Part shown: one piece after another, positions 5,601 to 64,000 of the stretch
How positions within the stretch are numbered: position 1 is the first letter of the stretch
Layout: the number at the start of each line of letters is the position of its first letter
Assembly: GCA_964036045.1 (NCBI GenBank)
Contig: OZ038383.1
Coordinates: 115,840,431 to 115,904,430, forward strand
DNA from: Eutreptiella sp. 'Long Island Sound 2002'
Lineage: Eukaryota > Euglenozoa > Euglenophyceae > Eutreptiales > Eutreptiaceae
DNA: 64,000 bases
Direction: 5' to 3'
Notes under the pieces: generated by a model
Told to the model about the DNA's origin: nothing
Databases searched by the model: none
What the model saw: only the letters and a program-made list of their open reading frames with translations
Position numbers and translations under genes: made by a program

Positions 5601-8600
5601 GCAGAGTGGGTCAGGCTGCAGAGTGTAGGCCACAGACACAGCACGTGTTCCCATGTTTTTGTGCCCGAAAACTTTGAAAAATTTTCAGGAAATTGTTTCA
5701 TGCCTATATGTCTACTCCAGCAATGCCTGGCCCTTGTGAATGGGCTCCCACCCCCTGGAGATCCCTTGTTCAGGGAGAGTCCAGGGTGGTGGGTCAGGCT
5801 GCAGAGTGTAGGCCACAGACACAGCACGTGTTCCCATGTTTTTGTGCCCGAAAACTTTGAAAATTTTAGGAAATTGTTTCATGCCTATATGTCTACCCCA
5901 GCAATGCCTGGCCCTTGTGAATGGGCTCCCACCCCCTGGAGATCCCTTGTTCAGGGAGAGTCCAGGGTGGTGGGTCAGGCTGCAGAGTGTAGGCCACAGA
6001 CACAGCACGTGTTCCCATGTTTCTGTGCCCGAAAACTTTGAAAATTTTAGGAAATTGTTTTATGCCTATATGTCTACCCGAGCAATGCCTGGCCCTTGTG
6101 AATGGGCTCCCACCCCCTGGAGATCCCTTGTTCAGGGAGAGTCCAGGGTGGTGGGTCAGGCTGCAGAGTGGGTCAGGCTGCAGAGTGTAGGCCACAGACA
6201 CAGCACGTGTTCCCATGTTTTTGTGCCCGAAAACTTTGAAAATTTCAGGAAATTGTTTTATGCCTATATGTCTACCCCAGCAATGCCTGGCCCTTGTGAA
6301 TGGGCTCCCACCCCCTGGAGATCCCTTGTTCAGGGAGAGTCCAGGGTGGTGGGTCAGGCTGCAGAGTGTAGGCCACAGACACAGAACGTGTTCCCATGTT
6401 TTTGTGCCAGAAAACTTTGAAAATTTTAGGAAATTGTTTCATGCCTATATGTCTACCCCAGCAATGCCTGGCCCTTGTGAATGGGCTCCCACCCCCTGGA
6501 GATCCCTTGTTCAGGGAGAGTCCAGGGTGGTGGGTCAGGCTGCAGAGGGTAGGCCACAGACACAGCACGGGTTCCCATGTTTCTGTGCCCGAAAACTTTG
6601 AAAATTTTAGGAAATTGTTTTATGCCTATATGTCTACCCCAGCAATGCCTGGCCCTTGTGAATGGGCTCCCACCCCCTGGAGATCCCTTGTTCAGGGAGA
6701 GTCCAGGGTAGTGGGTCAGGCTGCAGAGTGGGTCAGGCTGCAGAGTGTAGGCCACAGACACAGCACGTGTTCCCATGTTTTTGTGCCCGAAAACTTTGAA
6801 AAATTTTCAGGAAATTGTTTCATGCCTATATGTCTACCCCAGCAATGCCTGGCCCTTGTGAATGGGCTCCCACCCCCTGGAGATCCCTTGTTCAGGGAGA
6901 GTCCAGGGTGGTGGGTCAGGCTGCAGAGTGTAGGCCACAGACACAGCACGTGTTCCCATGTTTTTGTGCCCGAATACTTTGATAAATTTTAGGAAATTGT
7001 TTTATGCCTATATGTCTACCCCAGCAATGCCTGGCCCTTGTGAATGGGCTCCCACCCCCTGGAGATCCCTTGTTCAGGGAGAGTCCAGGGTGGTGGGTCA
7101 GGCTGCAGAGTGTAGGCCACAGACAGAGAACGTGTTCCCATGTTTTTGTGCCCGAATACTTTGAAAATTTTAGGAAATTGTTTCATGCCTATATGTCTAC
7201 CCCAGCAATGCCTGGCCCTTGTGAATGGGCTCCCACCCCCTGGAGATCCCTTGTTCAGGGAGAGTCCAGGGTGGTGGGTCAGGCTGCAGAGTGTAGGCCA
7301 CAGACACAGCACGTGTTCCCATGTTTCTGTGCCCGAAAACTTTGAAAATTTTAGGAAATTGTTTTATGCCTATATGTCTACCCCAGCAATGCCTGGCCCT
7401 TGTGAATGGGCTCCCACCCCCTGGAGATCCCTTGTTCAGGGAGAGTCCAGGAGGGTGGGTCAGGCTGCAGAGTGGGTCAGGCTGCAGAGTGTAGGCCACA
7501 GACACAGAACGTGTTCCCATGTTTTTGTGCCCGAAAACTTTGAAAAATTTTCAGGAAATTGTTTCATGCCTATATGTCTACCCCAGCAATGCCTGGCCCT
7601 TGTGAATGGGCTCCCACCCCCTGGAGATCCCTTGTTCAGGGAGAGTCCAGGGTGGTGGGTCAGGCTGCAGAGTGTAGGCCACAGACACAGCACGTGTTCC
7701 CATGTTTTTGTGCCCGAAAACTTTGAAAAATTTTAGGAAATTGTTTTATGCCTATATGTCTACCCCAGCAATGCCTGGCCCTTGTGAATGGGCTCCCACC
7801 CCCTGGAGATCCCTTGTTCAGGGAGAGTCCAGGGTGGTGGGTCAGGCTGCAGAGTGTAGGCCACAGACACAGCACGTGTTCCCATGTTTCTGTGCCCTAA
7901 AACTTTGAAAACTTTAGGAAATTGTTTTACGCCTATATGTCTACCCCAGCAATGCCTGGCCCTTGTGAATGGGCTCCCACCCCCTGGAGATCCCTTGTTT
8001 AGGGAGAGTCCAGGGTGGTGGGTCAGGCTGCAGAGTGGGTCAGGCTGCAGAGTGTAGGCCACAGACACAGCACGTTTTCCCATGTTTTTGTGCCCAAAAA
8101 CTTTCAAAAATTTGCAGGAAATTGTTTCATGCCTATATGTCTACCCCAGCAATGCCTGGCCCTTGTGAATGGGCTCCCACCCCCTGGAGATCCCTTGTTC
8201 AGGGAGAGTCCAGGGTGGTGGGTCAGGCTGCAGAGTGTAGGCCACAGACACAGCACGTGTTCCCATGTTTTTGTGCCCGAAAACTTTGAAAATTTTGGGA
8301 AATTGTTTTACGCCTATATGTCTACCCCAGCAATGCCTGGCCCTTGTGAATGGGCTCCCACCCCCTGGAGATCCCTTGTTCAGGGAGAGTCCAGGGTGGT
8401 GGGTCAGGCTGCAGAGTGTAGGCCACAGACACAGAACGTGTTCCCATGTTTTTGTGCCCTAAAACGTAAAATTTTTCAGGAAATTGTTTCATGCCTATAT
8501 GTGTGTGTACCCCAGCAATGCCTGGCCCTTGTGAATGGGCTCCCACCCCCTGGAGATCCCTTGTTCAGGGAGAGTCCAGGGTGGTGGGTCAGGCTGCAGA

Positions 8601-49160: not shown

Positions 49161-50811
49161 AAATTTTAGGAAATTGTTTCATGCCTATATGTCTACCCCA
49201 GCAATGCCTGGCCCTTGTGAATGGGCTCCCACCCCCTGGAGATCCCTTGTTCAGGGAGAGTCCAGGGTGGTGGGTCAGGCTGCAGAGTGTAGGCCACAGA
49301 CACAGCACGTGTTCCCATGTTTTTGTGCCCTAAAACTTTGAAAATTTTAGGAAATTGTTTTATGCCTATATGTCTACCCCAGCAATGCCTGGCCCTTGTG
49401 AATGGGCTCCCACCCCCTGGAGATCCCTTGTTCAGGGAGAGTCCAGGGTGGTGGGTCAGGCTGCAGAGTGTAGGCCACAGACACAGCACGTGTTCCCATG
49501 TTTTTGTGCCCGAAAACTTTGAAAAATTTTAGGAAATTGTTTCATGCCTATATGTCTACCCCAGCAATGCCTGGTCCTTGTGAATGGGCTCCCACCCCCT
49601 GGAGATCCCTTGTTCAGGGAGAGTCCAGGGTGGTTGGTCAGGCTGCAGAGTGTAGGCCACAGACACAGCACGTGTTCCCATGTTTCTGTGCCCTAAAACT
49701 TTGAAAATTTTAGGAAATTGTTTCATGCCTATATGTCTACCCCAGCAATGCCTGGCCCTTGTGAATGGGCTCCCACCCCCTGGAGATCCCTTGTTCAGGG
49801 AGAGTCCAGGGTGGTGGGTCAGGCTGCAGAGTGTAGGCCACAGACACAGAACGTGTGCCCATGTTTCTGTGCCCTAAAACTTTGAAAATTTTAGGAAATT
49901 GTTTTATGCCTATATGTCTACCCCAGCAATGCCTGGCCCTTGTGAATGGGCTCCCACCCCCTGGAGATCCCTTGTTCAGGGAGAGTCCAGGGTGGTGGGT
50001 CAGGCTGCAGAGTGTAGGCCACAGACACAGCACGTGTTCCCATGTTTTTGTGCCCGAAAACTTTGAAAATTTTAGGAAATTGTTTTATGCCTATATGTCT
50101 ACCCCAGCAATGCCTGGCCCTTGTGAATGGGCTCCCACCCCCTGGAGATCCCTTGTTCAGGGAGAGTCCAGGGTGGTGGGTCAGGCTGCAGAGTGTAGGC
50201 CACAGACACAGCACGTGTTCCCATGTTTCTGTGCCCTAAAACTTTGAAAATTTTAGGAAATTGTTTTATGCCTATATGTCTACCCCAGCAATGCCTGGCC
50301 CTTGTGAATGGGCTCCCACCCCCTGGAGATCCCTTGTTCAGGGAGAGTCCAGGGTGGTGGGTCAGGCTGCAGAGTGTAGGCCACAGACACAGCACGTGTT
50401 CCCATGTTTTTGTGCCCTAAAACTTTGAAAATTTTAGGAAATTGTTTCATGCCTATATGTCTACCCCAGCAATGCCTGGCCCTTGTGAATGGGCTCCCAC
50501 CCCCTGGAGATCCCTTGTTCAGGGAGAGTCCAGGGTGGTGGGTCAGGCTGCAGAGTGTAGGCCACAGACACAGCACGTGTTCCCATGTTTCTGTGCCCTA
50601 AAACTTTGAAAATTTTAGGAAATTGTTTTATGCCTATATGTCTACCCCAGCAATGCCTGGCCCTTGTGAATGGGCTCCCACCCCCTGGAGATCCCTTGTT
50701 CAGGGAGAGTCCAGGGTGGTGGGTCAGGCTGCAGAGTGTAGGCCACAGACACAGCACGTGTTCCCATGTTTTTGTGCCCTAAAACTTTGAAAATTTTAGG
50801 AAATTGTTTTA

Positions 50812-51011
50812 NNNNNNNNNNNNNNNNNNNNNNNNNNNNNNNNNNNNNNNNNNNNNNNNNNNNNNNNNNNNNNNNNNNNNNNNNNNNNNNNNNNNNNNNN
50901 NNNNNNNNNNNNNNNNNNNNNNNNNNNNNNNNNNNNNNNNNNNNNNNNNNNNNNNNNNNNNNNNNNNNNNNNNNNNNNNNNNNNNNNNNNNNNNNNNNNN
51001 NNNNNNNNNNN
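50812..51011. other. Assembly gap of 200 N
   Basis: There are exactly 200 Ns. A round number of this kind is normally a placeholder of unknown true size. On the left the sequence stops inside a 181-bp monomer. On the right it resumes inside the A part of the subtelomeric block, at a point matched internally at 56094 and 61946. The satellite/subtelomere junction is therefore not observed. Confidence 0.99.
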
Positions 51012-52170
51012 TCATTTTTGGGCCCATTCATGTGCCATAGCCCATGAAGGTAATAAACTCACAGAGGTAGTGAAATCACAACCAGGGGGACCGGCATACA
51101 TGGGAAACACGTTTCATGAATTGTAGCAAAGGGATTACATTTGGGTTTCAACCCCTTATGGAATCCGTATTTTCTGAGGGGAAAAATATCCCCCAACAAT
51201 TTTCTGTTGGGAACCCCTGAGATCCCCTCACCTAAAAACTCCATTTTTTTTTAGGTTGGATGCAAGCGGCAGGGAGACAGAGCTAGGTTGGCATACTATG
51301 GCCCCTATGCATCACTCACCACCTTGATCCCATTCAATTTTTTCCTTCTACACGGACGCCCTAACAAACGACTGTTGCCAGCATGGGCTGGCTGCAAAAG
51401 TGCATCCTATGTGGCTGCTGGGAATGTGGGGAGGGGCCGGAGGGGGGGGGGGGGTCCGGCAAGTCACATTGAAAAACGCCCCTTTTCCAGCCCGAAGCAC
51501 ACCAATGATCAGCCTGGGTGCGAAGCACAAATCACCTCGCAGAGGTTGTTAGATCAAAGCCAGGCAGGGGTATATATGGGGAAAACGCCACATACCCCCC
51601 ATTTTGGGCCTTTTTGGGCCTATTCGCGTACCCTACCCCAAGGGGTTGAATTGTTAGTTTAACCCCTTGTAAAATCATTATTTTGTCCAATAAATGCATC
51701 CCCCAATGAGTTTTTGGTCCGGACCCCCCCAGACGCCCCCCACTTGAAACCCACTTTTTTGAGGTTTTGAGGGAGGGGGGGGGTGGGGGGGGGGGTCAAA
51801 AATGTCGAAAAAATGACCCCCCCTTTTTTGGGTCGAAAATCATGAATCGTTTGGTTTTTTTTTCGATTTTGAGCCGAAAAAGTGTTTCCGGGTCCCGACT
51901 CCATAGGGTTTGTATGGGGCGGAGTGGGACGAGCGCTGATGCAGTTTATGCACTTTTCAGCCATTTTTGCTATGTTGGTGGTTTTGGCGACCTCGGTGAC
52001 CCCGTGGTATCCACTTTGAGGGGTGCGAGTGGGGATGTTGTGACAGTATATGCCTACTAGGATATCTAAGGACGTTTTTTGCGGTCTGTAGCTGTGCCGA
52101 GGGCCGGTCAGTGCCTGTGCTAAAGACACAGAATGGCCATTTCCACCAGTAATGGCCTAGTGAATGGGCC
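51012..52170 (+). repeat. Subtelomeric A-B-C block, copy 1 (5' part lost in gap)
   Basis: This matches 56094-57260 and 61946-63100 closely. Part A (51012-51250) and part B (from about 51530) are diverged versions of each other, both running from an aaatcac stretch through a tat-rich gggg segment to a run of T and ggt. B carries a tatatata-like stretch at about 51570 and an AATAAA at about 51689. Part C begins with G-runs (about 51773-51795), then a CGAAAA-rich stretch, and ends at aatgggcc just before a ~190-bp monomer. No convincing gene is present; short open frames on both strands are broken or shifted between copies. Confidence 0.85.
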
Positions 52171-52994
52171 GGTACACAACCTGCTTATGTAGTTTTTCAC
52201 CGTGGACAACTCAAAAATCGAAGTTTTCGAAGCTTTTTGAGTTTCTGACCACACAATATGCTGCAGTTACGTGTTTTTCACCCTATTTGGGTATTGGGTG
52301 GGGCGGGGGGAATCCCAAGGGATTGGTACACAACCTGCTGATGCAGCTTTTCACTCTGGACAGCTCAAAATCGAAGTTTTCGAAACTTGTTTTTCTGATA
52401 CCGTGATCACCTAAAATGACCATCCAAGCTATGTAAAGCATGTTTTAGGCTGCAGTTACGTGTTTTATCACCCTATTTGGGTATTGGCCGCACGGGGGGG
52501 GGGGGGGGGGGGGCTCCCAAGGGATTGGTACACAACCTGCTTATGCAGTTTTTCACTCTGGACAGCTCAAAAATCGAAGTTTCGAAACTTGTTTTTCTGA
52601 TACCGTGATCACCTAAAATGACCATCCAAGCTATGTAAAGCATGTTTTGGCCCGTATTTACGCGTTTTTCACCCTATTTGGGTATTGGGTGGGGGGGGGG
52701 GGACTCCCAAGGGATTGGTACACAACCTGCTCATGCAGTTTTTCACTCTGGACAGCTCAGAAATCGAAGTTTTTGAAACTTGTTTTTTTGATCTTGTGAC
52801 CACTTAAAATGACCATCCAAGGTATGTAAAGCATGTTTTAGGCCGTATGTACATGATTTTCACCCTATTTGGGTATAAGGTCCGGGGGGGTTGGGGGGGC
52901 TCCCAAGGGATTGGTACACAACATGCTTATGCAGTTTTTCACCCTAGGCTGCTCAAAAAACGAAGTTTCCGAAACTTGTTTCTTTGATACCGTG
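52171..52994 (+). repeat. Diverged ~190-bp satellite monomers
   Basis: Monomers begin at ggtacacaacc and pass through a pyrimidine-rich cagtttttcac, the palindromic aagtttt/cgaaactt, gataccgtgatcacc, gctatgtaaagcatg and caccctatttgggtattgg, ending in a G-run and ctcccaaggg. The second gctcaaaa mark follows after only 157 bp because the first monomer lacks about 39 bp between cacaatatg and ctgcagtt. A run of 20 G lies at 52494-52513. The last 152 bp (52843-52994) form the left target duplication of the neighbouring insertion. Confidence 0.85.
52843..52994 (+). repeat. Left 152-bp target-site duplication
   Basis: This segment begins at ccgtatgtacatgatttt and ends at gataccgtg. It is repeated at 53288-53438 with only a few differences, and both copies share states absent from other monomers, such as gtacatgatttt, acaacatgct and ctcaaaaaacg. 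The two copies bracket the 293-bp insertion exactly. Confidence 0.85.
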
Positions 52995-53287
52995 GGGCTG
53001 CCCAGGGAGCAGAGGAGGAAGGGGTATGGCGGCGACCCCCCACTGACGGGAGCGTCCTCCGGGGCGCCGGGTAACCCGTCCCGTAAGGGCCCAGCACCGC
53101 CCCGGCGGCTGCACGGACGGGCGAGCTGGGAAGTGACTTAGTCATGACCAGCTCGTCCCTCTGTTCCGCCGTGCACCACAGGCGGGGGGCATTCAGCCCG
53201 GGGGGAGGGCGCAGAACTCTGAGATCGGCCCTTCCCCCTAGCCCCTCGACCTCTGTACATAGGCTCATGGACAGTAAAAGCGCAATA
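52995..53287 (+). mobile_element. 5'-truncated copy (293 bp) of the subtelomeric site-specific element
   Basis: This insert interrupts a ~190-bp monomer and is flanked by an approximately 152-bp duplication. Its 3' end, tggacagtaaaagcgcaata, is the same as that of the long copy ending at 61361. It contains the last ~48 codons of that copy's reading frame (ending at the TAG near 53139), with several amino-acid differences, followed by a 3' untranslated tail almost identical to the long copy. 5' truncation, a constant 3' end and a variable-length target duplication point to target-primed reverse transcription, as known for non-LTR retrotransposons. There is no poly(A) tail. Confidence 0.8.
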
Positions 53288-53658
53288 CCGTATGTACATG
53301 ATTTTCACCCTATTTGGGTATAAGGTCCGGGGGATTGGGGGGGCTCCCAAGGGATTGGTACACAACATGCTTATGCAGTTTTTCACCCTAGGCTGCTCAA
53401 AAAACGAAGTTTTCGAAACTTGTTTCTTTGATACCGTGATCACCTAAAATGATCATCCAAGGTATGTAAAGCATGTTTTAGGCCGTATTTATGTAGTTTC
53501 CACCCTATTTTGGGTGTGTGTTGCTTGGGGTACATTCTCTACGAGGTGGACTTGCCGAAGGCAATAGACTTTTTGCAAAAAAAATTTGATATTGTGACCA
53601 CGCACAATAATGAAATATGCTATGTAAAGCATGTTTTAGCCCCACTTTGTGTGTTTTT
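53288..53658 (+). repeat. Right target duplication and following monomers, including a diverged type
   Basis: 53288-53438 is the second copy of the 152-bp target duplication. From about 53500 the monomer changes to a diverged type with gttgcttggggtacattc and cgaggtggacttgccgaagg, also seen at about 55255 and 58195. The last 20 bases (53639-53658, gccccactttgtgtgttttt) are the left target duplication of the next insertion. Confidence 0.8.
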
Positions 53659-53743
53659 TAAACACGGGCGCCTGAAATTCGACTCGACCCACCTCCCCGC
53701 CCCTCGACCTCTGTACATAGGCCAGTGGACGCTAAAAGACGAA
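53659..53743 (+). mobile_element. Short, older 3' fragment (about 85 bp) of the same element family
   Basis: The insert ends in cgacctctgtacatagg then ccagtggacgctaaaagacgaa, a diverged form of the 3' end at 53287 and 61361. It is flanked by 20-bp near-repeats, gccccactttgtgtgttttt (53639-53658) and ggcccacttggtgtgttttt (53744-53763), with two mismatches. The 3' junction falls at the same monomer position as in the other copies. Heavy 5' truncation and the mismatches suggest an old insertion. Confidence 0.7.
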
Positions 53744-53854
53744 GGCCCACTTGGTGTGTTTTTCAGCCTATTAGGGTGTGGGGGGGGGGGCTACCAAGGG
53801 GGCCAGGGCACAACCTGCTTAGGCAGTTTTCCACCCTCGGTAGCTCAAAAATGG
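53744..53854 (+). repeat. Partial ~190-bp monomer
   Basis: This starts with the right target duplication of the short element and runs through a G-run (about 53779-53790) to tagctcaaaaatgg. It stops there, at the same monomer position where the D block begins at 55623 and 61473. Confidence 0.75.
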
Positions 53855-54520
53855 AAATCACCTCGCAGAGGTTGTTAGATCAAAGCCAGGCAGGCGTATA
53901 TATGGGGAAAACGCCACATACCCCCCATTTTTGGCCTTTTTGGGCCTATTTGTGTGCCCTACCCCAAGGGGTTGAATTGTTAGTTTAACTCCTTGTAAAA
54001 TCATTATTTTGTCCAATAAACGCATCCCCCAATGAGTTTTTGGTCCGGACCCCCCCAGACGCCCCCCACTTGAAACCCACTTTTTTCAGCTTTTCAGGGA
54101 GGGGTGGGGTGGGGGGGGGGGGGGGGGGGGGGGCGGGGGGGGGGGTCAAAAATGTCGAAAAAAACGACCCCCCTTTTTTTGGGTCGAAAATCATGAATCG
54201 TTTGGTTTTTTTTTCGATTTTGAGCCGAAAAAGTGTTTCCGGGTCCCGACTCCATAGGGTTTGTATGGGGCGGAGTGGGACGAGCGCTGATGTAGTTTAT
54301 GCACTTTTCAGCCATTTTTGCTATGTTGGTGGTTTTGGCGACCTCGGTGACCCCGTGGTATCCACTTTGAGGGGTGCGAGTGGGGATGTTGTGACAGTAT
54401 ATGCCTACTAGGATATCTAAGGACGATTTTTGCGGTCTGTAGCTGTGCCGAGGGCCGGTCAAATTCCCGTGCCAACGACATAGAATGGCTGTTTCCACCA
54501 GTAATGGCCCAGTGAATGGC
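53855..54520 (+). repeat. Truncated B-C block (type II)
   Basis: This begins inside part B at aaatcacctcgcagagg and continues to the end of part C at gaatggc, lacking parts D and A. It carries the type II C ending (gtcaaattcccgtgcc and atggctgtttccacc) shared with 57190-57260 but not with 52105-52170 or 63030-63100. The G-tract region contains 23 G (54111-54133), one C, then 11 G (54135-54145). It is flanked by the same 46-bp monomer segment on both sides (53809-53854 and 54526-54571), suggesting insertion into the monomer or block exchange in register. Confidence 0.8.
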
Positions 54521-55408
54521 CGGTACACAACCAGCTCATGCAGTTTTTCACCGTGGACAACTCAAAAATCGAAGTTTTCGAAACTTTTTGATATTGTGAC
54601 CACCTAAAATGACCATCCAAGGTATGTAAAGCATGTTTTAGGCTGCAGTTACGTGTTTTTCACCCTATTTGGGTATTGGGTGGTGGGGGGGGGGACTCCC
54701 AAGGGATTGGTACACAACCTGCTGATGCAGTTTTTCACTCTGGACAGCTCAAAAATCGAAGTTTTCGAAACTTGTTTTTCTGATACCGTGATCACCTAAA
54801 ATGACCATCCAAGCTATGTAAAGCATGTTTTAGGCTGCAGTTACGTGTTTTATCACCCTATTTGGGTATTGGGTAGGGGGGGGGGGGTCTCCCAAGGGAT
54901 TGGTACACAACCTGCTCATGTAGTTTTTCACTCGGGACAGCTCAGAAATCGAAGTTTTCGAAACTTGTTTTTTTGATATTGTGACCACCTAAAATGACCA
55001 TACAAGGTATGAAAAGCATGCTTTAGGCCGTATTTACGTGTTTTTCACTCTATTTGGGTATTACCTCCGAGGGGCGGGGGGGGGGGGGGGTTCCCAAGGG
55101 ATTGTACACAACCGGCAGTTTTTCACCCTAGGTAGCTCAAAACGCGAAGTTTTGGAAACTTATTTTTCTGATACCGTGATCACCTAAAATGACCCTCCAA
55201 GCTATGTAAAGCATTTTTTAGGCCGTATTTATGTCGTTTTTTCCCCATTTTGTGTGTGCGTTGCTTGGAGTAGCTTCTCTGCGAGGTGGGCTTGCCAAAG
55301 GCAATAGAATTTCCTAAACTGATTTTTTTGATATTTTGACCATCCAAAATCATCAAATATCCGATGTACAGCATGTATAGCATTTAGCCCCTCTTTATGT
55401 GTTTTTCA
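54521..55408 (+). repeat. ~190-bp satellite monomers (four plus one diverged)
   Basis: The gctcaaaaatcgaag mark or its variants occur near 54561, 54747, 54940 and 55135. Each monomer has a G-run before ctcccaaggg and the aagttttcgaaactt palindrome (gttttggaaactt in the last). From about 55225 the sequence is the diverged type with ttgcttggagtagc. The final 22 bp (55387-55408) form the left target duplication of the next insertion. Confidence 0.82.
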
Positions 55409-55511
55409 TGCGGGGGTTTGTGGGGGAGGACACAGGCGCCTGAACTCGACTTGGCCCACCTCCCCACCCCTCGACCTCTGTACATATTCCAGTGGACGCT
55501 AAAAGATGAAT
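55409..55511 (+). mobile_element. 103-bp 3' fragment of the site-specific element
   Basis: The insert runs from tgcgggggtttgtggggg to ctaaaagatgaat and shares cccctcgacctctgtacata with the ends at 53287 and 61361. It is flanked by a target duplication of about 20-22 bp, 55387-55408 on the left and gccctctttatgtgttttca (55512-55531) on the right. The same insert, duplicated with the block, is at 58345-58447. Confidence 0.75.
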
Positions 55512-55622
55512 GCCCTCTTTATGTGTTTTCACCCTATTTGGGTGTTGGGGCGGGGGGGCTCCCAAGGGGGCTTGGGCACAACCTGCTCATGCAGTTTTCC
55601 AGCCTCAGCAGCTCAAAAATGG
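55512..55622 (+). repeat. Partial ~190-bp monomer; empty-site counterpart of the long insertion
   Basis: Here gccctctttatgtgttttca continues directly into ccctatttgggtg. At 58448 the same 20 bp are instead followed by the 2.9-kb element. This is therefore the unoccupied version of that target. The monomer stops at gctcaaaaatgg. Confidence 0.85.
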
Positions 55623-57260
55623 TCCTCCCTGTCCCCTCTTCGAGGTGCCTTGCCGGAGGCAACAGAATGTTTGGCCCTGATTAGGGGTGCAGTGCACCTG
55701 CCAACAACAGTTGAACGATTTTCGCCAGCTGGTTACCTTGTGATTGGCATGGCACTATTTGTGCCTTGGGTTGCACCTCATTTTGTTTGGCTCTCACTTG
55801 GGTCCCCCATGGTAACCCTCCTGTGAGGTCCCACAAATGGTGCCATGCTGAGTTCAGGCTATCGCACCATACGGAATCCACACGCCCTGTCACGCACAAG
55901 GCGCACTGGGCAGGGGGTTGGTGCGCAGCCCGAGGGCATGTGCCAGAAATCCTCACACAAATATCCGGAGCATTCCACCTTGTTGTCCAGAACAGCTGCG
56001 CTGCGGGTGGCCTACAAGTGACATTGCCCCCCCCACCCCACCCCCATCCCACGCAGCCTTGATGGCACACACACCCCACACACACCACATACCATCATTT
56101 TTGGGCCCATTCATGTGCCATAGCCCATGAAGGTAATAAACTCACAGAGGTAGTGAAATCACAACCAGGGGGACCGGCATACATGGGAAACACGTTTCAT
56201 GAATTGTAGCAAAGGGATTACATTTGGGTTTCAACCCCTTATGGAATCCGTATTTTCTGAGGGGAAAAATATCCCCCAACAATTTTCTGTTGGGAACCCC
56301 TGAGATCCCCTCACCTAAAAACTCCATTTTTTTTTAGGTTGGATGCAAGCGGCAGGGAGACAGAGCTAGGTTGGCATACTATGGCCCCTATGCATCACTC
56401 ACCACCTTGATCCCATTCAATTTTTTCCTTCTATACGGACGCCCTAACAAACGACTGTTGCCAGCATGGGCTGGCTGCAAAAGTGCATCCTATGTGGCTG
56501 CTGGGAATGTGGGGAGGGGCCGGAGGGGGGGGGGGGTCCGGCAAGTCACATTGAAAAACGCCCCTTTTCCAGCCCGAAGCACACCAATGATCAGCCTGGG
56601 TGCGAAGCACAAATCACCTCGCAGAGGTTGTTAGATCAAAGCCAGGCAGGGGTATATATGGGGAAAACGCCACATACCCCCCATTTTGGGCCTTTTTGGG
56701 CCTATTCGCGTACCCTACCCCAAGGGGTTGAATTGTTAGTTTAACCCCTTGTAAAATCATTATTTTGTCCAATAAATGCATCCCCCAATGAGTTTTTGGT
56801 CCGGACCCCCCCAGACGCCCCCCACTTGAAACCCACTTTTTTGAGGTTTTGAGGGAGGGGGGGGTGGGGGCGGGGGGGGGGGTCAAAAATGTCGAAAAAA
56901 ACGACCCCCCCTTTTTTTGGGTCGAAAATCATGAATCGTTTGGTTTTTTTTTTCGATTTTGAGCCGAAAAAGTGTTTCCGGGTCCCGACTCCATAGGGTT
57001 TGTATGGGGCGGAGTGGGACGAGCGCTGATGCAGTTTATGCACTTTTCAGCCATTTTTGCTATGTTGGTGGTTTTGGCGACCTCGGTGACCCCGTGGTAT
57101 CCACTTTGAGGGGTGCGAGTGGGGATGTTGTGACAGTATATGCCTACTAGGATATCTAAGGACGATTTTTGCGGTCTGTAGCTGTGCCGAGGGCCGGTCA
57201 AATTCCCGTGCCAACGACATAGAATGGCTGTTTCCACCAGTAATGGCCCAGTGAATTGGC
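55623..57260 (+). repeat. D-A-B-C block, complete copy
   Basis: Part D (55623-56093) is found again at 61473-61945 and ends in a CA-rich tract (acacacaccccacacac). Parts A and B follow as in copy 1. Part C begins with a G-rich tract (about 56855-56882). The copy is mosaic: it follows the type I sequence of 51012-52170 through B but ends with the type II form shared with 54440-54520. It is flanked on each side by the same 46-bp monomer segment (55577-55622 and 57266-57311, roughly 80% alike). Open frames of up to 135 codons exist in D on both strands, but no recognisable protein or domain is seen. Confidence 0.85.
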
Positions 57261-58344
57261 CGGTACACAACCAGCTCATGCAGTTTTTCACCGTGGACAA
57301 CTCAAAAATCGAAGTTTTCGAAACTTTTTGAGATTGTGACCACACAATATGACCATCCAAGGTATGTAAAGCATGTTTTAGGCTGCAGTTACGTGTTTTT
57401 CACCCTATTTGGGTATTGGGTATTGGGGGGGGGGGGGACTCCCAAGGGATTGGTACACAACCTGCTGATGCAGCTTTTCACTCTGGACAGCTCAAAAATC
57501 GAAGGTTTCGAAACTTGTTTTTCTGATACCGTGATCACCTAAAATGACCATCCAAGCTATGTAAAGCATGTTTTAGGCTGCAGTTACGTGTTTTATCACC
57601 CTATTTGGGTATTGGGTGGGGGGGGGGGTGGACTCCCAAGGGATTGGTACACAACCTGCTTATGCAGTTTTTCACTCTGGACAGCTCAAAAATCGAAGTT
57701 TCGAAAAATGTTTTTCTGATACCGTGATCACCTAAAATGACCATACAAGCTATGTAAAGCATGTTTTAGCCCGTATTTCCGCGTTTTTCACCCTATTTGG
57801 GTATTGGGTAGGGGGGGGGGTCTCCCAAGGGATTGGTACACAACCTGCTTATGTAGTTTTTCACTCGGGACAGCTCAGAAATCGAAGTTTTCGAAACTTG
57901 TTTTTTTGATATTGTGACCACCTAAAATGACCATACAAGGTATGAAAAGCATGTTTTAGGCCGTATTTACGTGTTTTTCACTCTATTTGGGTATTACCTC
58001 CGAGGGGCGGGGGGGGGGGGGGGGGGTTCCCAAGGGATTGTACACAACCTGCAGTTTTTCACCCTAGGTAGCTCGAAACGCGAAGTTTTGGAAACTTATT
58101 TTTCTGATACCGTGATCACCTAAAATGACCCTCCAAGCTATGTAAAGCATTTTTTAGGCCGTATTTATGTCGTTTTTTCCCCATTTTGTGTGTGCGTTGC
58201 TTGGAGTAGCTTCTCTGCGAGGTGGACTTGCCAAAGGCTATAGAATTTCCTAAACTGATTTTTTTGATATTTTGACCATCCAAAATCATCAAATATCCGA
58301 TGTACAGCATGTACAGCATTTAGCCCCTCTTTATGTGTTTTTCA
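57261..58344 (+). repeat. ~190-bp satellite monomers (five plus one diverged)
   Basis: Monomer marks lie near 57301, 57490, 57686, 57877 and 58072. G-runs interrupt each monomer, for example at about 57425-57437 and 58010-58026. Compared with 54521-55408 there is one extra monomer, carrying gtttcgaaaaatgtttttctg, which also occurs at about 63500. The last 22 bp (58323-58344) are the left target duplication of the 103-bp insertion. Confidence 0.82.
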
Positions 58345-58447
58345 TGCGGGGGCTTGTGGGGGAGGACACAGGCGCCTGAACTCGACTTGGCCCACCTCCC
58401 CACCCCTCGACCTCTGTACATATTCCAGTGGACGCTAAAAGATGAAT
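58345..58447 (+). mobile_element. 103-bp 3' fragment of the element (duplicate of 55409-55511)
   Basis: This is nearly identical to 55409-55511 (ggggcttgtgg instead of ggggtttgtgg), including both junctions, so it arose by duplication of the block and not by a separate insertion. The long element then inserted 20 bp downstream of its end. Confidence 0.78.
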
Positions 58448-58467
58448 GCCCTCTTTATGTGTTTTCA
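58448..58467 (+). repeat. Left 20-bp target-site duplication of the long element
   Basis: gccctctttatgtgttttca is repeated exactly at 61362-61381 and occurs once, uninterrupted, at 55512-55531. Confidence 0.92.
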
Positions 58468-58521
58468 GGCTTCTTGTTGTGAGCCTGCTCGAGGCGAAGC
58501 TGCACTAGCTGAGCCGCAACC

Positions 58522-61215
58522 ATGTTTCTGTCGAGGGGGGCCTCCCAGGCTGCGGGGAGGGCTCCCCTTGGCGCTCTTGCTCCCCGGGAGCTATCCGAGA
58601 GGCACTGGCCCTCTCTGCCGCTAGCGGCGATGGCCGCGCCTGCCGCCCCGCCCTCACGCCGAGGCCGACAGCGCCGGAGCGAAGACCGGAGGAGACCGCT
58701 AGCGGGGGGCACAACGCGTCCCCTCGCAGCAGCGGTCGCAACAGCCATCGCGGCGACGGCTGTGGCGGCGAGCTCGTCGTCGACGCGTCCAGATTCGGGC
58801 GCAAGCGTGGCGCCGAGCGCGGCCCAGGTGGCGGCATGGGCAGCGGCAGCGGCAGTGGCGCCGGCGGCTCTGCCTGCCCGCGGCGCCTTTTACGAGTACG
58901 TTGACTTCTACGCCGAGGACAACGAGGTATGCCCGTTTTGCTGTGGGCAGCTGGGCAGCTGCTACTGCCACGCGGAGCCTCTCGAGGAGGACATTACCGT
59001 GGGGCAGTTTCTGGAGCGGTACGTTACCGCTCCTGCAGTGCAGGCCGCCTCTGTGGCTGCCGTGGCCGCGGGTGTTGTCGCTGCCGGTGCCTTGGGCAGC
59101 CATCAGGGGGCCTCAGACACGCCGGGGGCAGGAGGGGGTGCGTCCCCCAGCGCCCTAGCCCCACGAACTCTGCCTGGCGCGGGGTCATGGGCTGACCTCA
59201 TGGACGCCGACGACGCGGCAGCAGAGAAGGCCTCTGGGGGCTTCAGCCCCCCAATCAGTGGCGCTCTCGGGGCACCTGGGGCTGGTGGGGGTGCGTCCCC
59301 CAGCGCCTGGAGTGCCCCTCGCATAGTTCATGGCAGCCAACAGGCTGCAGGTGGCGCCGATGGTGGCGCGCTCGGGTCACCTGGGGCTGGTGGGGATGCA
59401 TCCCCCAGTGCCCGGAGCACCCTCCGCACAGCTCCTGGCAGCCGCCGGGCTGCAGGTGGCGCCGCTGGTGGCGCTCTAGGGGCATCTGGGGCTGGTGGGG
59501 CTGCATCCCCCAGCGCCCAGAGCGCCCCTCGCACAGTTCCTGGCAGCCACCAGGCTGCAGGTGGTGCCGCTTGTGGCGCTCTCGGGGCTGCATCCCCCAG
59601 CAGTCTAACCCCCTGCTCTGGCCCTAGCTTCCCACCCGCGCCCCGCTTGGGCGCCATCCATAAATCCAAGTGTGGCCTTCCCCCTGACCCGCCCCTAACC
59701 CTACAGGTGACGCCCAGCTCTGGCGCCAGCGCTGGCAGTGCCAGATTCCAGGGCAGAGGCGGCAACAGTGAGGCTGCCCCTGTGCCGCCGTGGTCTGGCA
59801 CAGGTGGCAGCACCAGCAGTGACGTCCAGACCCCCAGGTCTGGCGGAAGCGACAGCACCAGCAGTGACGTCCAAGCCACCAGGTCTGGCGGGAGTGGCAA
59901 CACTGGCAGGGACGTCCAGACCACCAGGATTGGCGGTAGCGGCAGCACCAACAGTGACGTCCAGACCGCCAGGTCTGACAGCTGTTGCAGCACCAGCGGT
60001 GGCGTCCAGACCACCAGGTCCGGCGGAAGTAGCAGCGCCAGCAGAGAAGTCCAGGCCAGGTCTGGCAAAGCCAGCGCCACCAGCAATGGTATCCAGACCG
60101 TCGGGTCTGGCGGAAGCGGTGGCACCCACCATACTGCCCAGGCCACCACTCCTGGCGGCCGAGGCAGCACCGAGCAGGAGGTATCCCTGGGGGGGGAGGG
60201 GGTGCAGAAACCAGCAGACCCCACCCACCAGTTTGGGGTACTCCAGGACGAGGAGGGATGCACCCGCAGGTGCATCCAAGAATTGCAAGCTGCAGTGCTG
60301 GAGCTGCTGCTGCATGGTTTCTGGGAGCAGCGGCTGCACTGTACTGCCCCCCCCTCCCCCATCGGTTTATGCGCTAACCCTCCCCCGGGACGCCTGCCCT
60401 GTGCGGCGCCCCGGGGGACAGCTCCTATATGTCGTAGGGAGGGGTGGGGCTCCACCCCCCCCCTCCATTGCCCAGATAACTGCCCCCTGCCCCCCAGGCC
60501 CCAGGGGAACAGGAGGGGGGTAGTGACGACGGCACTACCTTTGCAGCCACCAGTGCTGCCAATGTTGCAAGGCGTGGCCGGTGCGCTGCGTGCGGACCTT
60601 GCTGCCCGCCCAACCAGTGCAGCGCTCAATGGCGGAGCGCTGCCAGAGGACGGGGGCCTTGTGCTGAGGAGGCCCTCAGGACAGCCTCCTTGCCCCTCCC
60701 CTAACCTGACCCAGGGGCAGGGAAGGGCAGAGTGCTGGGAGGGGGGAGGGCTTGGGTGCCCTGACCCTTCCCCCCCCCCGAAATTGACGGTAGGGGAAGG
60801 TCAAGACCTCCCCCTGCCTGCAGCACGGTGCCCCGACGGAGGGGCGCCCCCAGAGAGACAAGGGGCGATGGGGGACCACAATCACCCCCTCCCCAAGGCG
60901 AGTGCGCGTAGTCTCCCCCTACTCCAAAAGAGGTCGGAGGAGGTGGCGCAGGGCCTCGGCCTGCGGCCGGCCCCGGAGGGGCATGGAGTGATGGGGGAAC
61001 ACGGGGTGGCCGACCCACCCCGGGCAGGGTACAAGGGCGCGCTGCAGGGCCTCGGCCTGTGGCCGGCCCGGGGAGGAGGAGAGAAGCGGCGGGGGGCGGC
61101 CAGCAGCAACCCCCCATTGACGGGCGCGTCCTCCAGGGCGCAGGGTAACCCAGCCCGGAGGGCAAGGGCGCCGCGACGGCGGCTGCACGGGAGGGCGAGC
61201 TCGGAAGTGACTTAG
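58522..61215 (+). CDS. 897-aa low-complexity protein of the inserted element, function unknown
   Basis: I do not recognise this protein. The first ATG has A at -3. An alternative start at 58630 (residue 37, MAAPAAPPSRRG) has G at -3 and +4. The N-terminus is Ala/Arg-rich. Residues about 123-165 form the only compact-looking segment, acidic and aromatic, with CPFCC (137-141) and CYCH (147-150), a possible zinc-binding C-x2-C-x6-C-x-C-H arrangement. Residues about 247-355 are 35-residue repeats (GALGAPGAGGGASPS-type, 105 bp each). Residues about 429-543 are 15-residue repeats (RSGGSGSTSSDVQTT-type, 45 bp each). Residues about 571-607 could form a helix (ELQAAVLELLLHGFWEQ). The rest is Pro/Gly/Arg-rich. 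Both repeat units are multiples of three, which keeps the frame open. It resembles in general character the first ORF of some retrotransposons, but no family is assigned. The stop is TAG at 61213. Confidence 0.6.
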   Translation: MFLSRGASQAAGRAPLGALAPRELSERHWPSLPLAAMAAPAAPPSRRGRQRRSEDRRRPLAGGTTRPLAAAVATAIAATAVAASSSSTRPDSGASVAPSAAQVAAWAAAAAVAPAALPARGAFYEYVDFYAEDNEVCPFCCGQLGSCYCHAEPLEEDITVGQFLERYVTAPAVQAASVAAVAAGVVAAGALGSHQGASDTPGAGGGASPSALAPRTLPGAGSWADLMDADDAAAEKASGGFSPPISGALGAPGAGGGASPSAWSAPRIVHGSQQAAGGADGGALGSPGAGGDASPSARSTLRTAPGSRRAAGGAAGGALGASGAGGAASPSAQSAPRTVPGSHQAAGGAACGALGAASPSSLTPCSGPSFPPAPRLGAIHKSKCGLPPDPPLTLQVTPSSGASAGSARFQGRGGNSEAAPVPPWSGTGGSTSSDVQTPRSGGSDSTSSDVQATRSGGSGNTGRDVQTTRIGGSGSTNSDVQTARSDSCCSTSGGVQTTRSGGSSSASREVQARSGKASATSNGIQTVGSGGSGGTHHTAQATTPGGRGSTEQEVSLGGEGVQKPADPTHQFGVLQDEEGCTRRCIQELQAAVLELLLHGFWEQRLHCTAPPSPIGLCANPPPGRLPCAAPRGTAPICRREGWGSTPPLHCPDNCPLPPRPQGNRRGVVTTALPLQPPVLPMLQGVAGALRADLAARPTSAALNGGALPEDGGLVLRRPSGQPPCPSPNLTQGQGRAECWEGGGLGCPDPSPPPKLTVGEGQDLPLPAARCPDGGAPPERQGAMGDHNHPLPKASARSLPLLQKRSEEVAQGLGLRPAPEGHGVMGEHGVADPPRAGYKGALQGLGLWPARGGGEKRRGAASSNPPLTGASSRAQGNPARRARAPRRRLHGRASSEVT
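59261..59600 (+). repeat. 105-bp minisatellite inside the reading frame
   Basis: The mark gcgctctcggggcacctggg and its variants recur at 59261, 59366, 59471 and 59576, exactly 105 bp (35 codons) apart. Units differ at several bases, and the last is shortened. Confidence 0.9.
59806..60150 (+). repeat. 45-bp minisatellite inside the reading frame
   Basis: The mark gacgtccaga or its variants recurs at 59821, 59866, 59911 and 59956, then in more diverged units to about 60150. This encodes about seven 15-residue repeats. At least one late unit is shortened by a whole number of codons, so the frame is kept. Confidence 0.88.
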
Positions 61216-61361
61216 TCATGACCGCCTCGTCCCTCTGTTCCGCCGTGCACCACAGGCGGGGGGCATTCAGCCCGGGGGGAGGGCGCAGAACTCTGAGATC
61301 GGCCCTTCCCCCCAGCCCCTCGACCTCTGTACATAGGCTCATGGACAGTAAAAGCGCAATA
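61216..61361 (+). other. Conserved 3' tail of the element with potential hairpin
   Basis: This 146-bp tail is nearly identical to the tail at 53140-53287, although the coding sequence just upstream differs far more. It contains ccgcc-gtgcaccaca-ggcgg, a 5-bp stem with a 10-base loop. A structured, conserved 3' end is where non-LTR reverse transcriptases usually bind their RNA, so that role is plausible here. An ATG at 61218 opens a frame that runs off the element end into the target. Confidence 0.6.
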
Positions 61362-61381
61362 GCCCTCTTTATGTGTTTTCA
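61362..61381 (+). repeat. Right 20-bp target-site duplication of the long element
   Basis: Exact repeat of 58448-58467, immediately followed by the monomer sequence ccctatttgggtg as at the empty site. Confidence 0.92.
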
Positions 61382-61472
61382 CCCTATTTGGGTGTTGGGG
61401 CGGGGGGGCTCCCAAGGGGGCTTGGGCACAACCTGCTTATGCAGTTTTCCAGCCTCAGCAGCTCAAAAATGG
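61382..61472 (+). repeat. Partial ~190-bp monomer
   Basis: Continuation of the monomer interrupted by the long element, nearly identical to 55532-55622, ending at gctcaaaaatgg where the next D block begins. Confidence 0.85.
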
Positions 61473-63100
61473 TCCTCCCTGTCCCCTCTTCGAGGTGCCT
61501 TGCCGGAGGCAACAGAATGTTTGGCCCTGATTAGGGGTGCAGTGCACCTGCCAACAACAGTTGAACGATTTTCGCCAGCTGGTTACCTTGTGATTGGCAT
61601 GGCACTATTTGTGCCTTGGGTTGCACCTCATTTTGTTTGGCTCTCACTTGGGTCCCCCATGGTAACCCTCCTGTGAGGTCCCACAAATGGTGCCATGCTG
61701 AGTTCAGGCTATCGCACCATACGGAATCCACACGCCCTGTCACGCACAAGGCGCACTGGGCAGGGGGTTGGTGCGCAGCCCGAGGGCATGTGCCAGAGAT
61801 CCTCACACAAATATCCGGAGCATTCCACCTTGTTGTCCAGAACAGCTGCGCTGCGGGTGGCCTACAAGTGACATTGCCCCCCCCACCCCACCCCCATCCC
61901 ACGCAGCCTTGATGGCACACACACCCCACACACACCACATACCATCATTTTTGGGCCCATTCATGTGCCATAGCCCATGAAGGTAATAAACTCACAGAGG
62001 TAGTGAAATCACAACAGGGGGACCGGCATACATGGGAAACACGTTTCATGAATTGTAGCAAAGGGATTACATTTGGGTTTCAACCCCTTATGGAATCCGT
62101 ATTTTCTGAGGGGAAAAATATCCCCCAACAATTTTCTGTTGGGAACCCCTGAGATCCCCTCACCTAAAAACTCCATTTTTTTTTAGGTTGGATGCAAGCG
62201 GCAGGGAGACAGAGCTAGGTTGGCATACTATGGCCCCTATGCATCACTCACCACCTTGATCCCATTCAATTTTTTCCTTCTACACGGACGCCCTAACAAA
62301 CGACTGTTGCCAGCATGGGCTGGCTGCAAAAGTGCATCCTATGTGGCTGCTGGGAATGTGGGGAGGGGCCGGAGGGGGGGGGGGGGGTCCGGCAAGTCAC
62401 ATTGAAAAACGCCCCTTTTCCAGCCCGAAGCACACCAATGATCAGCCTGGGTGCGAAGCACAAATCACCTCGCAGAGGTTGTTAGATCAAAGCCAGGCAG
62501 GGGTATATATGGGGAAAACGCCACATACCCCCCATTTTGGGCCTTTTTGGGCCTATTCGCGTACCCTACCCCAAGGGGTTGAATTGTTAGTTTAACCCCT
62601 TGTAAAATCATTATTTTGTCCAATAAATGCATCCCCCAATGAGTTTTTGGTCCGGACCCCCCCAGACGCCCCCCACTTGAAACCCACTTTTTTGAGGTTT
62701 TGAGGGAGGGGGGGGTGGGGGGGGGGGAAATGTCGAAAAAACGACCCCCCCTTTTTTGGGGTCGAAAATCATGAATCTTTTGGTTTTTTTCGATTTTGAG
62801 CCGAAAAAGTGTTTCCGGGTCCCGACTCCATAGGGTTTGTATGGGGCGGAGTGGGACGAGCGCTCTGCAGTTTTATTATGCAATTTTCAGCCATTTTTGC
62901 TATGTTGGTGATTTTGGCGACCTCGGTGACCCCGTGGTATCCACTTTGAGGGGTGCGAGTGGGGATGTTGTGACAGTATATGCTTACTAGGATATCTAAG
63001 GACGATTTTTGCGGTCTGTAGCTGTGCCGAGGGCCGGTCAATGCCTGTGCTAAAGACGCAGAATGGCCATTTCCACCAGTAATGGCCTAGTGAATGGGCC
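61473..63100 (+). repeat. D-A-B-C block, second complete copy (type I ending)
   Basis: This is nearly identical to 55623-57190 through D, A and B, with small differences: ccagagatcc at about 61792, loss of one C at about 62015 (acaacaggggg) that breaks a 61-codon antisense frame intact in the other copies, and a different G-tract length. Part C ends in the type I form (atgcctgtgctaaagacg), like copy 1. A local rearrangement changes gctgatgcagtttatgcac to gctctgcagttttattatgc at about 62863. Confidence 0.85.
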
Positions 63101-63914
63101 GGTACACAACCTGCTTATGTAGTTTTTCACCGTGGACAACTCAAAAATCGAAGTTTTCGAAGCTTTTTGAGTTTCTGACCACACAATATGCTGCAGTTAC
63201 GTGTTTTTCACCCTATTTGGGTATTGGGTGGGGCGGGGGGACTCCCAAGGGATTGGTACACAACCTGCTGATGCAGCTTTTCACTCTGGACAGCTCAAAA
63301 ATCGAAGTTTTCGAAACTTGTCTTTCTGATACCGTGATCACCTAAAATGACCATCCAAGCTATGTAAAGCATGTTTTGGCCCGTATTTTCCTGTTTTTCA
63401 CCCTATTGGGGAATTGGGTGGGGGGGGGGGGTGGGCTCCCAAGGGATTGGTACACAACCTGCTTATGCAGTTTTTCACTCTGGACAGCTCAAAAATCGAA
63501 GTTTCGAAAAATGTTTTTCTGATACCGTGATCACCTAAAATGACCATCCAAGCTATTTAAAGCATGTTTTGGCCCGTATTTCCGCGTTTTTCACCCTATT
63601 TGGGTATTGGGTGGGGGGGGGGGGGTTCTCCCAAGGGATTGGTACACAACCTGCTCATGTAGTTTTTCACTCGGGACAGCTCAGAAATCGAAGTTTTCGA
63701 AACTTGTTTTTTTGATATTGTGACCACCTAAAATGACCATACAAGGTATGTAAAGCATGTTTTAGGCCGTATTTATGTGTTTTTCACTCTATTTGGGTAT
63801 TACCTCCGAGGGGCGGGGGGGCTCCCAAGGGATTGGTACACAACCTGCAGCTTTTCACCCTAGGTAGCTCAAAACTCGAAGTTTTGGAAACTTATTTTTC
63901 TGATACCGTGACCA
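63101..63914 (+). repeat. ~190-bp satellite monomers, last one broken
   Basis: Monomer marks lie near 63139, 63294, 63488, 63680 and 63869. As in 52171-52994, the first monomer carries the 39-bp deletion, showing that this segment and copy 1 descend from one ancestor. The last monomer departs from consensus after gataccgtga, where gatcacctaaaatg is expected but gaccagg leads into telomere repeats. Confidence 0.83.
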
Positions 63915-63938
63915 GGTTAGGGTTAGGGTTAGGGTTAG
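63915..63938 (+). repeat. Short interstitial telomere repeat, (GGTTAG)4
   Basis: 24 bp of perfect vertebrate-type telomere sequence with the G-rich strand on +. On the left is a broken satellite monomer; on the right is the interior of a D block. The orientation fits a chromosome end originally pointing right. Confidence 0.95.
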
Positions 63939-64000
63939 TTGAACGATTTTCGCCAGCTGGTTACCTTGTGATTGGCATGGCACTATTTGTGCCTTGGGTT
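63939..64000 (+). repeat. Start of a 5'-truncated D block
   Basis: These 62 bp are identical to 55711-55772 and 61561-61622, beginning 88 bp into part D. Where this copy ends cannot be seen because the window stops. Confidence 0.9.

Follow-up and report, generated by a model that had tools for sequence, protein, structure and literature searches.

A target-specific APE-type non-LTR retrotransposon and its putative protein-coding riders share one point of a satellite monomer in Eutreptiella

Three families of mobile elements join the same point of a dispersed satellite monomer of about 190 bp. We are confident that they comprise a target-site-specific, APE-type non-LTR retrotransposon, named D here, and two families of riders, A and L, which would be copied in trans into its site. 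The fixed site, the partner encoding an APE-type endonuclease and a reverse transcriptase (RT), and the tail common to all three families together lead to this reading of a target-specific APE-type LINE with protein-coding riders. We describe the insertions in the window, by which we mean the whole 64,000-nucleotide stretch analyzed (C6:115840431-115904430, in a 146.9-Mb contig of a 2.28-Gb assembly of 2,205 contigs), and then the related junctions elsewhere in the genome.

Insertions in the window

The window opens with a homogeneous 181-bp satellite (1-50811; about 279 copies, 96% match) that ends in a 200-base run of N (50812-51011). It is followed by four diverged higher-order units of about 3 kb with arrays of the ~190-bp monomer (51500-63914), which are about 87-96% identical over pairwise stretches. 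Four telomere-like GGTTAG repeats (63915-63938) are joined to a broken ~190-bp monomer, and the sequence after them recurs near 55707. At about 31 Mb from the contig end, they make up an interstitial telomeric repeat located at a unit junction.

The 146-bp tail is present twice at high identity, at 61216-61361 and 53142-53287 (143/146 identical), and an older form of it lies at 53692-53738, 55453-55505 and 58389-58441. The tail and the four junctions named in the initial annotation were found where it had placed them, with 58447/58448 belonging to a duplicate of one insertion. No junction in the window is more than about 2 bp away from a single point of the monomer. Target duplications flank the insertions as had been claimed, although their form differs between the insertions, all of which are on the + strand.

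Insertion A (52995..53287) is a 293-bp, 5'-truncated copy of a 2,354-bp non-autonomous family and ends in ...GCGCAATA. Its target duplication is 152 bp long, with the left copy at 52843..52994 (98% identical to 53288-53438) and the right copy at 53288..53438. The monomer that it duplicated is single and uninterrupted in units 2 and 3, and unit 4 ends inside the monomer. The upstream letters of A match the family-A loci found elsewhere, with an ORF ending in ...RRLHGRASWEVT*. This frame agrees with the end of the L ORF and stops at the same codon; A and L are identical at 88 of the last 108 bp of the ORF, next to the 143/146 of the tail.

Insertion B (approximately 53661..53743, the 5' boundary uncertain by about 2 bp) is 5' truncated and belongs to the older tail subfamily. 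Insertion C (approximately 55409..55511) lies between duplications at 55387-55408 and 55512-55531, and has a segmental duplicate at 58345..58447. The target duplications of B and C measure 20-22 bp and contain mismatches. B, C and the duplicate of C align through both flanks, including odd indels and an unusual right-hand monomer, with B lacking 20 bp that are present at the 5' end of C. This colinearity indicates a single event carried by the ~3-kb unit, and B and C are best read from their alignment as one old insertion copied with that unit. The earlier view of four insertions at one point therefore stands for the point, but not for the number of events: four independent insertions are ruled out by the colinear flanks, leaving three (A, B/C and L).

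Element L (58468..61361; 2,894 bp) is a complete non-autonomous element with a fixed 5' end. It is flanked by an exact 20-bp target duplication, GCCCTCTTTATGTGTTTTCA, at 58448..58467 and 61362..61381. L consists of a 54-bp leader, an ORF of 897 aa (58522..61215) and the 146-bp tail or 3' UTR (61216..61361). L was inserted precisely into the right-hand target copy of the C duplicate, and the site has thus served for two insertions at this place. Behind C itself, the unoccupied right duplication (55512..55531) is an empty paralogous site for the L insertion, as seen where 54522-55531 aligns with 57452-58467 and 55453-58118 with 61301-63914.

An autonomous element with the same tail

D, the third family with this tail, lies outside the window and was followed upstream at three places. 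Two copies are full length (9,156 and 9,157 bp), each enclosed by an exact duplication (20 and 21 bp), and the third place is truncated. The longer, RT-bearing relative that the initial annotation had proposed to look for thus exists as a 9,157-bp element with ORF1 and an ORF2 encoding an APE-type endonuclease and an RT. The loci L047 and L048, on different contigs, are 99.7% identical over 9 kb, from which we infer that the D family moved recently.

The ORF2 frame (1,981 codons stop to stop in L047 and 2,081 in L048) carries an endonuclease/exonuclease/phosphatase domain N-terminal to the RT. The endonuclease matched PF03372 at 94-298 (E-value 2.4e-5; 24.6 bits, barely over the cut-off of 24.5) and the RT matched PF00078 at 687-839 (2.9e-8; 34.1 bits, cut-off 29.6), while zf-RVT stayed below its cut-off. 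Among PDB proteins, the best match was an RNA-directed DNA polymerase (4.4e-10), followed by LINE-1 ORF2 proteins (from 6.8e-10) and, more weakly, one R2 protein. ORF2 contains the motifs LLGETRL, GGDFN, RIDGLLVD, GYADD and CPGCGSQHEDEAHALWDC, which we take to be APE endonuclease, RT and CCHC motifs. Its low-complexity end gave a sub-threshold Pfam row, AF-4 (E-value 0.73). The ORF1 frame spans 838 codons (stop to stop). A Pfam search with ORF1 gave no match, the CCHC pattern C-x2-C-x3-5-H-x3-5-C was absent from it when read from the first Met, and its single-sequence structure model had a mean pLDDT of 38.7.

Two putative rider families with long ORFs

Families A (2,354 bp) and L (2,894 bp) each carry an ORF of 717-897 aa, and no RT was seen in either. 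The ORF of L, rich in Ala, Gly, Pro and Ser, had no match in Pfam or PDB, nor did that of A in Pfam, and neither matched D ORF1 or ORF2 by blastp at E 1. The longest open frame of L, at 900 codons, was reached by 0 of 300 Markov shuffles (shuffle maximum 667). Tandem repeats of 105 bp (59258..59588) and 45 bp (59792..60126) lie within it. The 2,894-bp copy had been interpreted as a 5'-truncated RT element; it is instead a complete element with its own ORF, of which only the last 178 bp are common with D.

Copies of family A measure 2,354 bp in six loci (L013, L014, L016, L017, L019 and L024) and are near full length in L025 (2,353 bp), L015 (2,336) and L022 (2,333). These nine, out of eleven family-A loci, keep the fixed 5' end and a stop-to-stop frame of 723-730 codons; the other two are L020, a 5'-truncated copy whose frame continues into flanking sequence, and the short copy L023. 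The full-length A copies, L021 and L in the window all begin with the same fixed 5' end, GGCTTCTTGTTGTGAG. A and L are 96.8% alike over the first ~620 bp and have their ends in common, whereas most of the middle differs, apart from one 314-bp stretch that is 71% alike. In L010 (2,917 bp, tail turned to +), a different N-terminal module (MSLPWGAPREGG...) is fused to the middle part of L. The riders thus look mosaic in sequence, as template switching would produce. Between A and L, dN/dS was 0.65 on 11 changes over 171 codons and 0.41 over 44 codons of the end, values that are only suggestive.

What A and L have in common with D is confined to its last 178 bp, at 93-96% identity (in L, 61185..61361, 178 aligned positions at 96%), and all three families end in GCGCAATA. 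Given this common tail, D would be the element that mobilizes them in trans, but the riders could in principle be served by an autonomous family other than D. Such a family is hinted at by a 66.5%-identical relative of the D RT region in L022 (96-3246; open-frame pieces of 271-393 codons, upstream of a family-A copy), and by the older tails of B/C and L026, which differ. However, the A and L tails match D itself, down to the same ending, and we therefore consider service by another family unlikely and retain D as the probable partner.

The predicted RNA fold of the tail was not significantly better than that of shuffled sequences (z about -1.4 for L and A, and from -0.1 up to +1.3 for C and B). 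Among the 21 pairs of the alignment fold there was one double-sided change. These predictions gave no structural recognition signal for the tail. An Rfam search at gathering scores found no match in window positions 50800-64000.

One target point across the genome

Junctions were collected with two queries, the tail and its last 24 bp, both without target letters. In the tail search, 40 of 837 candidates were scored, giving 41 rows. These represent both tails of the window plus 38 places elsewhere, of which one accounts for two rows. The 40 best rows are 96-100% identical. All 38 places were read, and every one shows an identical joint between the tail and the target behind it, with the last two tail letters differing in L022 and L045. 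The last 24 bp of the tail occur exactly at 116 places in the 2.28-Gb genome, compared to 0 for the reversed control. We read the 100 of these 116 exact 3' ends that were listed, plus three more exact ones, and these tail counts are lower bounds. The resulting 106 junctions are made up of 38 from the tail search, 65 from the 24-mer listing, two from the window and a second tail in L012. An exact 20-mer of the tail was absent from genome_contigs and viral_contigs, collections that may omit this genome.

The target point was hit in 105 of the 106 junctions, 102 at the exact base and three one base off (L099, L108 and L in the window). These include 39 of 40 in L052-L091 and all 25 in L092-L116; the latter were scored by eye. 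In the script, L099, with an additional A and a small duplication inside, scored low. The initial annotation had raised the possibility that the tails lie mainly outside the monomer, and genome-wide this applied to a single one of the 106 junctions read. This exception (L078/L117) adjoins unrelated sequence that begins with CCC, and a diverged D copy lies upstream of L078 (88.8% over 475 positions).

The listed 100 places of the 24-mer are spread along contigs C1 to C22, some near contig ends and many not, and the window itself lies at 115.8-115.9 of 146.9 Mb. Taking contigs for chromosomes, the label "subtelomeric" that had been given to the monomer has to be dropped, and the interior window together with the dispersed copies rules out an element restricted to subtelomeres.

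Left flanks read GTTTTAGC, then CCCTCTTTATGTGTTTTTCA, then the element, and right flanks read CCCTCTTTATGTGTTTTTCA followed by CCCTATTTGGG, with variants. We tabulated the target positions in 78 junctions, namely the first 80 minus L035, a target variant with a 3-bp shift, and L078. All 78 have C at position 2 and T at positions 15 and 17; the most variable position is 5 (C in 62%). To look beyond the joint, 20 loci were carried about 7 kb upstream (the long loci). Sixteen of them contain at least two site-like matches 182-205 bp apart, which identifies the target as a dispersed tandem monomer; L017 and L027 have other spacings, and L025 and L028 a single site. Monomers without an element adjoin those that bear one. 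The exact 35-mer GTTTTAGCCCTCTT... occurs at 4 sites, but it is one C short of the usual empty site, GTTTTAGCCCCTCTT..., so that this count is no measure of abundance.

Duplications, truncations and re-use of the site

A target duplication abuts the element in 16 of the 20 long loci. It is 20 bp long in 15 of the 16 (13 exact; 19/20 in L025 and L028), and L012 has a perfect duplication of 193 bp. The duplication of L010 was seen in an analysis other than the script, which missed it because the 5' part of L010 is absent from the reference elements. Four loci (L011, L018, L020 and L026) lack a clean abutting duplication. In many duplications, private variants such as CCCTCTTGATG, CCCTCTGCATG and CCGTATTTACATGATTTTCA are found on both sides.

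Truncated copies differ in length: 454 bp in L023, 680 in L040, 693 in L009, 796 in L012, 813 in L028, 1,022 in L032, 1,495 in L027 and about 5.7 kb in L049, the last with an exact 20-bp duplication. With a fixed 3' junction, duplications and variable 5' truncation, the proposal of a site-specific non-LTR element that moves by target-primed reverse transcription is supported. The two long duplications, of 152 bp around A in the window and of 193 bp in L012, are both found on truncated copies. In L012 (tail turned to +), the duplication at 6154-6346 and 7143-7335 corresponds to about one monomer around the 796-bp copy, and the second tail, 359 bp downstream, is also on target.

Some sites have been used more than once. 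On contig C19, a D 5' end directly follows a D tail and target copy, with the tails 9,178 bp apart (L109/L110); this is a head-to-tail D pair. L079 has a target copy with other sequence behind it and may represent a third instance of re-use. In L026 (5475-7129), a diverged relative of L with an older, B/C-type tail is followed by the target and then by a 133-bp tail fragment, a stacked insertion. Re-use beside a different left neighbor, as for L in the window and for L110, indicates that the right-hand sequence suffices, and the left part of the site seems dispensable.

The specificity could alternatively lie mainly in tethering to the chromatin or proteins of the satellite, with an endonuclease of weak specificity. 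The variation at some target positions, above all position 5, would be in line with tethering. Conversely, a joint at the exact base in 102 of 106 junctions, a second cut 20 bp away in 15 of the 16 long loci with a duplication, and re-use of the site beside a different left neighbor all argue for recognition of the sequence by the endonuclease, and we regard tethering as the main cause as improbable.

More improbable still is a spread of the copies along with the satellite, through segmental duplication or unequal exchange and without transposition. The duplicate in the B/C set is such a copied event, and common flanks in L066-L068, L073-L077, L081/L082, L095/L096 and L114/L115 point in the same direction. 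However, compared at 70 of 75 letters, the 105 right flanks (the second tail of L012 left out) include 87 distinct ones, duplications are private, truncation points differ and three families occupy the same site. The copies are therefore not all segmental duplicates of one insertion, a possibility that had been raised from the window, and the distinct flanks together with the single off-target junction leave the reading of a site-specific element intact.

Finally, it is scarcely credible that the "target" is the 3' part of the element and the fixed joint internal to one larger repeat: nearly every tail is followed by the same sequence, but the right flanks vary next to 96-100% identical tails (40 best rows), exact private duplications of the target lie to the left of the elements, which contradicts such a repeat unless they are assembly errors, and element-free monomers occur nearby, as does the empty paralogous site in the window.

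A model for insertion

Insertion by the D machinery would proceed as follows. The D endonuclease would nick the bottom strand of the monomer at the left caret of 5'-GTTTTAGC^CCCTCTTTATGTGTTTTTCA^CCCTATTTGGG-3', opposite GC^CCC, and the freed bottom-strand end would prime cDNA synthesis from an RNA that ends in GCGCAATA, within the 146-bp tail. The top strand would then be cut 20 bp downstream, at the right caret. Occasionally this cut may lie much further downstream, in either the same monomer or the one after it, and the duplications of 152 and 193 bp would result. These nicking, priming and cutting steps are modeled on how target-primed reverse transcription is known to work. The RNAs of A and L would be copied in trans by D into the same site, and a site would remain re-usable after insertion, as the right-hand copy keeps the right part. 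The off-target copy L078/L117 and the 4 of 20 long loci without a clean duplication run counter to this model.

A broader interpretation is possible, and we put it forward tentatively. It holds that this is a LINE lineage of strict endonuclease specificity for a satellite, with a guild of mosaic riders, which promotes growth of the satellite. In some insertions the duplicated stretch is roughly monomer-sized (152 and 193 bp), and each insertion would leave a usable site, so that head-to-tail stacks could build up. The rider protein, which is unrelated to the LINE's own proteins, would be made and be of consequence as a second, trans-acting component of the site-specific system. The usable site left by an insertion, together with the occasional duplication of about a monomer, provides a testable link between retrotransposition and satellite growth.

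A strict satellite-monomer target would offer a safe harbor scattered along chromosomes. It also suggests a natural endonuclease whose recognition site is long, which is of interest for targeted insertion by reverse transcription. Judging from the riders, some 178 bp of 3' tail may suffice to borrow the machinery.

Comparison with known systems

The target-specific Tx1/R1 clades of APE LINEs include R1, TRAS, SART and Tx1L, and CCHC knuckles in ORF1 are a feature of these clades. D ORF1 differs from them in having no such knuckles. L1 proper has a poly(A) 3' end and a loose TTTT/A target, unlike D, A and L, which end in AAAAGCGCAATA at a fixed site. In SINE-LINE pairs, a non-autonomous element carries the 3' tail of a LINE. 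The riders do the same, but they are 2.3-2.9 kb long with a long ORF.

D and the APE LINEs of the Tx1/R1 clades, as described in the available part of PMC4640811, both combine an APE endonuclease and RT with a fixed point in a multicopy sequence. Beside this fixed insertion, the D family also shows target duplication and 5' truncation. The targets of site-specific LINEs given in that part of the review are rRNA, spliced leader, tRNA, transposon, microsatellite and telomeric sequences (PMC4640811). The dispersed ~190-bp satellite monomer used by D is unlike the targets listed there for Tx1/R1 elements, to which we liken D by its features. Strict satellite-monomer targets are absent from the target list in the available part of PMC4640811, and the titles and abstract openings of a literature mostly outside subscription papers contained no case of such specificity. 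As far as these sources extend, a satellite monomer is new as a landing site of site-specific retrotransposons.

Other elements resemble D in part. YURECi and YURE-2_Cis of sea squirts, which are relatives of Utopia in the accessible text of PMC4640811, are non-LTR elements with occasional insertions in a U2-derived satellite. D is likewise found in satellite repeats, but with 105 of 106 junctions at one point and an APE-type endonuclease. According to the portion of PMC12857005 at hand, the fungal FoTeR elements have a PD-(D/E)XK (restriction-like) endonuclease and target telomeric repeats. MoTeR and FoTeR keep to one repetitive destination as D does, whereas D is APE-type and uses a dispersed satellite (PMC12857005).

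For the riders, HeT-A of Drosophila, as presented in the available part of PMC4700185, comes closest among known systems, as an ORF element without an RT that is paired with a partner. It has one structural ORF and no RT, and depends on the RT of TART or TAHRE, which share its destination (PMC4700185). A and L resemble it in having one long, putatively structural ORF and no RT. However, HeT-A joins chromosome ends, whereas the riders sit at an internal satellite point with 20-bp duplications (PMC4700185, same part). The rider ORF is also without homology to D ORF1 or ORF2, in contrast to a HeT-A-type Gag/ORF1 homolog of the partner. D itself works like the site-specific APE elements.
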